NCBI GenBank assembly: GCA_015232405.1
Contig: JADFZS010000009.1
Location: 1-64,000 of the forward strand
Direction of reading: 5' to 3'
Origin: Magnetococcales bacterium
GTDB lineage: Bacteria > Pseudomonadota > Magnetococcia > Magnetococcales > JADFYX01
Length of the DNA: 64,000 nt
Shown here: one piece after another, positions 20,230 through 25,460 of the stretch
Position numbering within the stretch: position 1 is the stretch's first letter
Layout of the letters: the number at the start of each line of letters is the position of its first letter
Program-made: the position numbers and the translations under genes
Notes under the pieces: model-generated
What the model saw: only the letters and a program-made list of their open reading frames with translations
Told to the model about the DNA's origin: nothing
Database searches by the model: none

Positions 20230-20329
20230 AAGCTGGATTTTGCTTTTTCAAGTTTTTGGCTCATGGGGTTATGGGTCAATTCATGATGTCTTTACAGAAA
20301 CACTTTTGCCCCGTAGTATGTTTAAACAT

Positions 20330-20665
20330 ATCCAGGTCACATGTGGGAACCCGGTGTAAATCCGGGACTGTCGCGCAGCGGTAATGGGGTAGTTTAAAAG
20401 TGGTTGATTTAAACCATGTGTTAAACCTAGAAACAGCAGTTGTCAGCACGCACCTGACGCAACCTATTGATTCATCTGGCATAACAGAGCAAAGTCTCAT
20501 CACCAACAAGGTGACTTCGATTTGCTCTGTTACACCAGCTAAACCAATATGTTACGCCATGTACGCACTACCAACTGCCGTTTCTAGGTTAAACACTCCC
20601 AAAGTCCGAAACCAAATGGTCTGGTGGTGTCGAGCCTTCGCATGAGAGGTTCACCGGAACCATAT
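20330..20665 (+). ncRNA. Cobalamin riboswitch (core with a large insertion), upstream of cbiM
   Basis: 5' core gggaacccggtgtaaatccgggactgtcgcgcagcggtaatgggg; 3' core cccaaagtccgaaaccaaatggtctggtgg; boundaries approximate. Confidence 0.88.
20421..20592. repeat. Large palindromic insertion within the cobalamin riboswitch
   Basis: Outer arms ttaaacctagaaacagcagttg / caactgccgtttctaggttaa; inner arms ctgg-ca-taacagagcaaa (20476-20493) / tttgctctgtta-ca-ccag (20521-20538); apical tcacc-aacaa-ggtga (20500-20514). Confidence 0.85.
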
Positions 20666-20699
20666 CTTTTTATTTGCTCTCCTTCTTCCGGTTTTTTTT
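20653..20699 (+). terminator. Candidate intrinsic terminator of the riboswitch expression platform
   Basis: accggaa (20653-20659) / ttccggt (20686-20692) followed by a T-run; alternative hairpin ggttc-accg-gaacc (20648-20661) is mutually exclusive. Confidence 0.65.
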
Positions 20700-20751
20700 C
20701 TCTTCAGCTCATCTCGGCATTTTTCACTCTCGCGATTATGGAGTAAATATC

Positions 20752-21366
20752 ATGCATGTTGTAGATGGGGTTTTATCAGCACCAGTTCTAGCTATAGGCG
20801 GTTTTGTTGCTGTGGGAGGTTTAACGGTTGGGCTAAAACAGGTTACAAGCGAAAAAATCCCCCAGGTAGCCATGTTGAGTGCAGCCTCTTTTTTAATCAC
20901 CCTTATTCATATTCCCATTGGCCCTTCCAGTATCCATATGGTGCTAAACGGCATAATAGGGCTTTTAATGGGCTGGGTTGCCTTTCCCATTTTTTTGACA
21001 GGGCTTTTGTTGGATGCAATATTTCTTGGTTTTGGAGGACTGCTCTCCCTGGGAGTAAATCTCAGCCTTATGGCTCTACCCGGTGTTGCGGTTCACTATC
21101 TATTTGCTGCAAGATTAAACCAGAGCCAACGCCCGTTTTTGTGGGGAGCATGTGGTGGAGCAGTTGCCATTGCAGCCACAGGATTGCTAGCTGCCTTGGC
21201 GTTGGGATATAGCAGTACCGCCTTTATACCAGCTGCAAAGGTTGTGATTGTCAGCCATATTCCACTTGTAGCATTGGAGGCATTTTTATGTGGCTCTGCC
21301 ATAGCCCTAATGAGCAGAGTCAAGCCAGAACTGTTTTTAGCTACACCACAGTTGGAAAGAGATTAA
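20752..21366 (+). CDS. cbiM: Cobalt/nickel ECF transporter substrate-specific protein CbiM/NikM family
   Basis: MHVVDGVLSAPVLAIGG N-terminus (metal-binding MH..DG), integral membrane; ATG at 20752 with GGAG. Confidence 0.9.
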   Translation: MHVVDGVLSAPVLAIGGFVAVGGLTVGLKQVTSEKIPQVAMLSAASFLITLIHIPIGPSSIHMVLNGIIGLLMGWVAFPIFLTGLLLDAIFLGFGGLLSLGVNLSLMALPGVAVHYLFAARLNQSQRPFLWGACGGAVAIAATGLLAALALGYSSTAFIPAAKVVIVSHIPLVALEAFLCGSAIALMSRVKPELFLATPQLERD

Positions 21367-21368
21367 GG

Positions 21369-22085
21369 GTGAAGGGAGTTGATGGCAGGGTTCGTATTAT
21401 CGCTGCTGTCCTGTTTGCCGTTGTCACAACAGCATGTTCCCGGCTTGATATCTTAACAGCCATCATGTTTTCTGCTGTTTTATTGGCTTGGTTTGCCAGG
21501 CTGCCTGTTGTTGAGACAATAAAAAAACTACTCTCAATGGATGGTTTTATTTTAATTCTTATAGCTACCCTACCCTTTACCACAACAGGAACCCATTGGT
21601 TTGGTTTTTCCGGGTTTACTGCCTCAGTGGAGGGAGGGCAACTTGCCATGGAGATTTTTCTCACCGCCAACGCCTGTATGTTGAGCTTTTTAGCTCTGGT
21701 GGCTGCCATGCCTCATCCTGCTATTGCCAGTGGTTTAAGAGGGTTGGGATGCAGTAAAAATTTAATCCAGATACTACTCTTGACCATCCGCTATATAGAA
21801 ACCTTGCGGTTGGAGTATCAACGACTACGCACAGCTATGCAGGCCCGTGGCTTTCAGCCCCGGAACAATCTGCATACTTGGCGCAGTTATGGCTATTTGG
21901 CAGGTATGCTCATTGTACGTAGTCTTGATAGGGCAGACCGGGTTTTAGCTGCCATGAAATGCCGTGGATTTAGGGGAAGCTTTCCCACGGTTGCAGAGGA
22001 TGCAAAACTGACAAAAGCCGATTATGTGTTTTTATGGTGGTTTTTCTTGGCTGTGCTGTTTGTGGTGGTGTGGCAATGGGGCTAA
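21369..22085 (+). CDS. cbiQ: ECF transporter transmembrane protein CbiQ
   Basis: AMQARGFQP and AMKCRGFRG (the two ARG motifs of ECF T components); GTG start at 21369 likely. Confidence 0.88.
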   Translation: MKGVDGRVRIIAAVLFAVVTTACSRLDILTAIMFSAVLLAWFARLPVVETIKKLLSMDGFILILIATLPFTTTGTHWFGFSGFTASVEGGQLAMEIFLTANACMLSFLALVAAMPHPAIASGLRGLGCSKNLIQILLLTIRYIETLRLEYQRLRTAMQARGFQPRNNLHTWRSYGYLAGMLIVRSLDRADRVLAAMKCRGFRGSFPTVAEDAKLTKADYVFLWWFFLAVLFVVVWQWG

Positions 22086-22711
22086 TAAAACTAACGGCGG
22101 TATCTTTTTCTTACATTCCTGATAAACCAGTAATATCAGGGCTGGATTTTGAACTTTGCAACGCTGAACGAATAGCCCTTAGTGGGGCAAACGGTGCTGG
22201 CAAAAGTACAATTTTAAAAATAATGGTGGGGCTTTTGCAACCTGATGGTGGGGTGGTAGAGGCTTTTGGCAGGGTTAGAACAAAAGAGAGAGATTTTTAT
22301 GAAGTTCGCAGCCGTGCCGGACTGCTTTTTCAGGATGCCGATGACCAGCTATTTTCACCAACAGTAATTGAAGATGTAAGGTTTGGTCCCTTAAACCAAG
22401 GGTTAAGTCAGACCAACGCAGATATAAAAGCCCATCAAGCTCTGCAAATAGTCGGTCTATCAGGCTTTGAAGATCGTGTTGCCCACAAACTGTCAGGAGG
22501 GGAAAAACGTCTTGTGGCCCTTGCTACCGTTTTGGCAATGGAACCAGAAGTGCTGTTGCTGGATGAGCCTACCGCTGGTCTTGATAATAAAACCATGGCT
22601 AGACTGGTTGGTATTTTAGAAGATCTACCACAGGCTATGGTGATAATCTCCCATGATCAGAACTTTTTGAAAAAACTGGTTACTCGCCGGGTAAATTTAG
22701 TACCCACTTAA
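22076..22711 (+). CDS. cbiO: ECF transporter ATPase CbiO
   Basis: Walker A SGANGAGKST, LSGGEKRLVALATVLAMEPEVLLLDEPTAGLD, ISHD; likely start MGLIKLTAVSFSY at 22076. Confidence 0.92.
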   Translation: MGLIKLTAVSFSYIPDKPVISGLDFELCNAERIALSGANGAGKSTILKIMVGLLQPDGGVVEAFGRVRTKERDFYEVRSRAGLLFQDADDQLFSPTVIEDVRFGPLNQGLSQTNADIKAHQALQIVGLSGFEDRVAHKLSGGEKRLVALATVLAMEPEVLLLDEPTAGLDNKTMARLVGILEDLPQAMVIISHDQNFLKKLVTRRVNLVPT

Positions 22712-22759
22712 ACCTAGAAACAGCAGTTGTCAGCACACACCACCAACCGCTGTTTCTAG
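22708..22759. repeat. Short palindromic copy of the riboswitch insertion element
   Basis: ttaaacctagaaacagcagttgtcagcac identical over 29 nt to 20421-20449; arms ctagaaacagcagttg / caaccgctgtttctag with one mismatch. Confidence 0.9.
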
Positions 22760-22767
22760 TATAACCG

Positions 22768-25279: not shown

Positions 25280-25460
25280 AAAAGGCAGTATTTCCCGTTT
25301 TTTTAAACTTAACTTGAATAAACAGAGCTAAATGGTCTTTATCCTGGATTCGGCAGTTGGACGATTGTGCCACCATTTGTAACTCAACAACTCACTTACT
25401 CGCAACGTTTAATCCCGGTAATATGTTTTACAGTAAAGGGGTGAGTTTGATATGCATAAT

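Follow-up and report, generated by a model that had tools for sequence, protein, structure and literature searches.

Mobile palindromes have been met in structured RNAs of bacteria before. Rickettsia palindromic elements (RPE) have been described from the genes for tmRNA and for the RNA of RNase P (M1 RNA) (PMC2229807, PMC10969869), the trp leader of pneumococcus has a BOX element separating two T-box riboswitches that are both apparently still active (PMC3049150), and the NEMIS/Correia elements of Neisseria have been proposed as RNase III targets (PMC2229807). Where a review of prokaryotic MITEs from 2024 speaks of riboswitches, it is only as something that MITEs might form (PMC10969869). Our own search of the open-access literature (subscription papers were outside its scope) turned up no case of a riboswitch aptamer with a mobile element in it.

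The locus described here lies in a 64,000-nt stretch of a Magnetococcales genome, the whole of which we call the window. It has the conserved core of the Rfam family RF00174 in its two halves and precedes cobalt-uptake genes, but is split by an insertion of 168 nt. Like the RPE, palindromes of about 100–150 bp, the inserted MITE is found in frame in protein genes and inside a structured RNA with no obvious destruction; unlike them, it has different ends and clear 5-bp duplications, is mostly intergenic or at gene edges, and has a riboswitch aptamer as its host RNA. We compare the two by behavior alone. The resemblance to BOX is that of a strongly structured repeat in a riboswitch-bearing leader, but BOX stands between two complete riboswitches, whereas the MITE sits within one aptamer.

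A cobalamin riboswitch in two halves

The preliminary description, made from the letters alone, had claimed that both conserved halves of a cobalamin riboswitch are present and had proposed the RF00174 covariance model as a check. In an Rfam scan of 20250–20760 under an E-value threshold, this model matched 20345–20427 (26.4 bits, E = 7.8e-5; E = 2.1e-4 over the whole genome); the match comprised the 5′ half only and ended at the start of the insert. Since the insert interrupts the riboswitch, the score falls under the Rfam gathering score of 31.5 bits and annotation overlooks the locus: with default settings, Rfam gave zero matches anywhere in the window. The 3′ half (20598–20657) gave no Rfam match on its own, and the other matches within 20250–20760 were microRNA long-hairpin models on the palindrome, far under their cut-offs. 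The conserved core and the P5/P6/P7 context are found in the two halves, upstream of cobalt genes, and the 3′ half is recognized by its identity to an ortholog (see below), so that both halves are indeed present. The features of the locus, all on the + strand, are as follows.

20345–20425, +: riboswitch 5′ half (GGGAACCCGG, P5/L5, J6/3, P7 5′ strand, small hairpin), from RF00174 and identity to the ortholog
20385–20389, +: P7 5′ strand UGGGG, part of the 5′ half
20401–20416, +: first small hairpin, UGGUU-GAUUU-AAACCA, part of the 5′ half
20421–20425, +: left target-site duplication TTAAA, from the alignment of copies
20426–20588, +: 163-bp palindromic MITE with ends CCTAGAAAC...GTTTCTAGG, from genome copies, boundary alignment and hairpin fold
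20589–20593, +: right target-site duplication TTAAA, from the alignment of copies
20594–20657, +: riboswitch 3′ half (CAC of the interrupted hairpin, P7 3′ strand, AAGUCCGAAACC, downstream stems), from identity to the ortholog
20597–20601, +: P7 3′ strand UCCCA, part of the 3′ half
20653–20699, +: likely intrinsic terminator of the expression platform; function predicted from the fold
20653–20659 and 20686–20692, +: terminator arms ACCGGAA and UUCCGGU, then a U run, from the fold
20752–21366, +: cbiM, substrate-specific component of cobalt uptake and the regulated gene (PF01891, 160.6 bits)
21288–22085, +: cbiQ ORF in its longest reading, the true start probably lying further in (PF02361, 88.3 bits)
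22034–22711, +: cbiO-like ABC ATPase ORF in its longest reading (PF00005, 100.4 bits)
22713–22760, +: shortened MITE relative of 48 bp with an internal deletion, lying 2 bp past the stop of cbiO; its duplication is not intact

The genes cbiM, cbiQ and cbiO are intact downstream of the interrupted riboswitch. A second cobalamin riboswitch, uninterrupted and scoring 74.7 bits, is present in the same genome (locus L031, 1501–1705; G000:C262:19307–19511).

The orthologous leader without the insert

A congeneric genome (G002, contig C433) encodes a CbiM ortholog that is 81% identical, and its cbiM leader, a complete RF00174 match (40.2 bits, model positions 1–189), is without the insert. The conserved blocks agree closely between the two leaders (42 of 45 positions identical in the 5′ core, 20345–20389, and 55 of 60 in the 3′ block, 20598–20657), and the spacing between them is 37 nt in G002 vs. 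208 nt in the window; taking away the 168 nt of the element plus one duplication leaves 40 nt. The comparison with a related leader, which had also been proposed as a check, therefore establishes that an insertion took place, as the preliminary description had inferred, and that the segment is not a conserved part of the riboswitch.

The periphery of cobalamin riboswitches is indeed variable in length, and the hairpin might accordingly be taken for an ordinary long peripheral extension that involved no insertion. This reading is refuted by the ortholog without the segment and by the recurrence of the same 163 bp, with duplications, about 40 times in the genome, and we give it practically no credence. 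A misjoining of contigs through a repeat is equally improbable: the assembly does consist of 335 contigs, several of which end inside copies of the MITE, but this copy is flanked by two halves that complement each other to a single riboswitch, follow the order of the ortholog and carry a common 5-bp duplication, which a chance join would not produce. The matching duplications on two halves of one riboswitch exclude a chimeric join.

Anatomy and family of the inserted element

Positions 20415–20600 are predicted to fold as a single long hairpin (−75.1 kcal/mol, z = −10.7; none of 200 shuffles was as good), with arms at 20418–20493 and 20521–20596 that are 79% complementary. Long outer arms are followed by an inner stem of 4 bp and 12 bp around a 2 × 2 internal loop, and by an apical 5-bp stem with the loop AACAA. 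The fold thereby confirms an anatomy that had first been drawn on paper, and also the claim that the insert folds on itself. The segment, first placed at 20421–20592, is real, but its exact limits are 20426–20588 plus TTAAA on each side. The window copy differs from the genome consensus at 4 of 163 positions, and its duplication is perfect on both sides.

A search of the genome with the insert gave 40 matching-strand places. Of these, 35 (among them the window copy) have full or near-full length and 93–100% identity, most of them 93–98%; two are truncated at contig ends, and three have 86–87% identity. Matches on the reverse strand were mostly the same places, the palindrome being read backwards. 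In an alignment of the best 30 copies, the length was exactly 163 bp, with no longer or other length fitting consistently, and the ends formed terminal inverted repeats (CCTAGAAAC.../...GTTTCTAGG), as expected of a MITE. A perfect 5-bp duplication flanks 23 of these 30 copies, that in the window among them (TTAAA, TTTAA, TTGAA, ATTAT, ATAAT, CTAAA and ATTAA were seen); in our own count from the table of copies, 58 of 80 copies across five genomes carry a target-site duplication. About 40 dispersed copies in the genome, together with the duplications, demonstrate the mobility of the family and bear out the proposal that the insert is a mobile palindromic element. Four congeneric genomes contain diverged copies (∼74–89% identical, nearly all 162–164 bp long, many with duplications), and the rest of the order gave at most a weak match, in 3 of 36 genomes. 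As judged from these matches, the insert family is a MITE family at the level of the genus. The MITE had no match in a plasmid collection searched with it.

The element has no transposase of its own: it is 163 bp long, the only stop-free frame of the window copy has 54 codons, and the window ORF that runs through the copy has no Pfam match within it. We rejected the idea that the center of the element flips relative to its ends, the two apparent classes of copies being simply the two strands.

A shorter version of 48 bp seems to have lost its interior by deletion between ACGCACC direct repeats, and 7 of its 10 copies have 5-bp duplications of their own. The one at 22713–22760 is absent from the G002 ortholog; the cbiMQO operon of the window is bracketed by the 163-bp MITE and this 48-bp relative. 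An isolated single end, CCTGGATTCGGCAGTTG, lies between two genes at 25343–25359 of the window and is perhaps a relic.

Ends of the element and search for an autonomous parent

ISEcp1 is an element of the IS1380 family. Its IRL is CCTAGATTCTACGT, and it makes 5-bp duplications such as TCATA (PMC7864471). The ends of the MITE, CCTAGA(AA/TT)C, resemble those of ISEcp1 as printed there, being of the CCTAG type and adjoined by an AT-rich duplication of 5 bp, within the 4–5 bp looked for. The likeness lies in ends that begin with CCTAGA (some copies and relatives have CCTAGATTC) and in the 5-bp duplication; unlike ISEcp1, the MITE is non-autonomous.

We searched this genome and seven relatives with an IS1380 model and scanned for ends around the matches. 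IS1380 transposases are present in the genome of the window, with ends other than those of the MITE or unresolved, and the most complete copy has the ends CCCGGATATTTCATGAA and the duplication CTAA. In the congeneric genome G003, which carries the MITE, no IS1380 transposase was detected. An autonomous parent with matching ends was not found among the copies examined, nor did an end pattern allowing three mismatches reveal one in G003 or, among the first 100 matches listed, in the genome of the window. An end-to-end pair of 1398 bp on contig C277 was rejected as a parent because it proved to be a MITE copy with an IS110-type transposase gene in its interior. The gene lies in the loop region of that copy (L080, 622–2019; G000:C277:3121–4518), with the TTGAA duplication kept, and the likeness to QMITE2 of Coxiella, which has IS1111 inside (PMC10969869), is one of arrangement only.

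The end pattern occurred at nine places in the GTDB collection, ∼4 of which are expected by chance by our own estimate, and no clear transposase adjoined where ORFs were read. A Gammaproteobacteria MAG (L119, 6486–6719; JAOTWM010000091.1) contains a stretch of 234 bp that is bounded by CCTAGATTCGGYAGTTG ends and has a TTCAA duplication, and similar ends after AT-rich bases are found in distant phyla, which suggests a widespread family of ends. Because the most complete IS1380 copy has other ends and G003 is without a detected IS1380 transposase, we put the mobilization of the MITE by an IS1380-type transposase, which its termini suggest, at likely rather than higher.

Other landing sites

Going by rough gene calls, the 30 best copies lie mostly between genes or only a few bases from the end of one. 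None of the 29 loci other than that of the window has a recognizable Rfam family interrupted by the element; the Rfam matches there were to tRNAs outside the element, or were weak or to microRNA models. Residence in frame in protein genes, as known for RPE, is seen twice. Copy L002 (G000:C111:28390–28552) lies in a cysI-like sulfite/nitrite reductase ORF of 722 aa that is open throughout and is followed by a cysH-like gene, and the diverged copy L042 (G002:C411:5838–6000) lies in a gluQ-like gene (tRNA-synt_1c, glutamyl-tRNA-synthetase-like). The element and its duplication add 168 bp, or 56 codons, and one frame is stop-free in most copies. Coding selection on this open frame is unsupported, with pN/pS ranging from 0.44 to 1.61 between subfamily consensus sequences, and the lack of stops is expected by chance in 47–82% of simulations.

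Site of insertion and predicted fold

When the ortholog is aligned to RF00174, its variable peripheral subdomain is closed by a stem of UGGG and CCCA. This closing stem is P7 in the usual numbering. The MITE entered the loop of the second small hairpin inside the subdomain, GUG-UUAAA-CAC. As TTAAA is nearly self-complementary, its two copies pair save for one A-A mismatch, and the outer arms of the element therefore prolong the host hairpin.

We performed ensemble folding over 20310–20662, with 60 shuffles of the insert as a control. The predicted fold of the insert is self-contained: the expected number of pairs between insert and riboswitch was 3.8, chiefly in the helix of TTAAA and flank, compared with 33.4 ± 9.9 (minimum 15.6) for shuffled inserts, and the disturbance of riboswitch pairs was 16 vs. 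a mean of 45 (minimum 28). P5 retained its pairing probability of 0.98–1.00 with the insert, and the first four pairs of P7 went from 0.88–0.93 without it to 0.76–0.82 with it. These values are from thermodynamic folding, which ignores tertiary contacts (the L5–L13 kissing loop) and cotranscriptional folding. The preliminary description had supposed a tolerant peripheral stem and an insert that folds as a closed extension; the site, a small-hairpin loop in the P7 subdomain, and pairing of the insert almost only with itself bear out both suppositions.

The same fold recurs across the family. Among 69 distinct copies, 93% of cells in the consensus hairpin are paired, compared with 32–40% in slid controls, and changes on both sides occur at 25 of 54 hairpin pairs, a count to be read with the shared descent of the copies in mind, and one in which arm-to-arm conversion would mimic a signal of selection. 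Judged by these paired changes, the hairpin of the element stays closed, whether through selection or through arm-to-arm conversion.

Retained sensing or damage

As the predicted pairing persists in the ligand-binding core and at the foot of the subdomain, corrinoid binding and control of cobalt uptake are probably retained, as the preliminary description had also inferred. The closed fold, the plausible terminator and the intact cbiM, cbiQ and cbiO point the same way, and we regard retained B12 sensing as somewhat more likely than its loss. The conservation of the core is no proof of selection since the insertion, which is young (four differences, intact duplication).

The MITE might instead have broken or biased the switch, through slower folding, RNase III cleavage of the long duplex, or loss of an effect of the peripheral subdomain, leaving cbiMQO constitutively on or off and the damage neutral and awaiting purge. 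So recent an insertion might be tolerated damage, the long RNA duplex is a plausible target of RNase III, and the genome has its second, intact cobalamin riboswitch. However, the insert lies distal to P7, where the length of the subdomain varies greatly (other cobalamin riboswitch matches in the same order span roughly 130–266 nt), and the predicted pairing of the core is preserved. We hold this outcome to be rather unlikely, while giving it appreciable weight.

A benefit of the element at this site, selected as a processing site or as a cotranscriptional delay that retunes the switch, is far less probable. The composite pneumococcal leader with its BOX element and two T-box riboswitches offers a precedent (PMC3049150), and two of the three stem differences from the consensus convert an A-C mismatch into an A-U pair. 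The third, however, disrupts a pair; no meaning can be read into as few as three changes, and there are no relatives with a common insertion in which conservation could show.

Discussion

We consider the explanation as a whole quite probable: a MITE inserted into a loop of the P7 subdomain, and the aptamer, on balance, still works. A non-autonomous palindromic element of 163 bp with IS1380/ISEcp1-like ends entered the TTAAA loop of GUG-UUAAA-CAC and duplicated the TTAAA; the mobility of the family, the insertion, its position and the self-contained predicted fold are shown. In the RNA, most of the one duplication would pair with the other and the element would fold back on itself, enlarging a hairpin of 11 nt to ∼180 nt without loss of pairing in the ligand-binding core or at the foot of the subdomain. 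The riboswitch would then most probably still bind corrinoid and control cobalt uptake.

A bolder interpretation, which we offer only tentatively and by analogy with RPE, is that a working cobalamin aptamer carries a transposon as a peripheral domain and that the family, convergent with RPE, is made to do no harm wherever it inserts. A closed hairpin kept by paired changes, a length of element plus duplication that is a multiple of three, a mostly open frame, and a preference for near-palindromic AT-rich targets whose duplications pair might together let it pass in protein genes and structured RNAs.

The case points to a blind spot of annotation, in that a riboswitch split by a mobile element drops under the Rfam cut-off and is lost. 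It also provides a natural insertion experiment, in which a closed hairpin of ∼170 nt has been placed on one peripheral tip of a riboswitch, and the tolerance of the P7 subdomain is directly testable because the insert-free ortholog of the congeneric genome serves as a control. The short list of structured RNAs that host mobile palindromes, tmRNA and RNase P RNA, is extended to a riboswitch aptamer.
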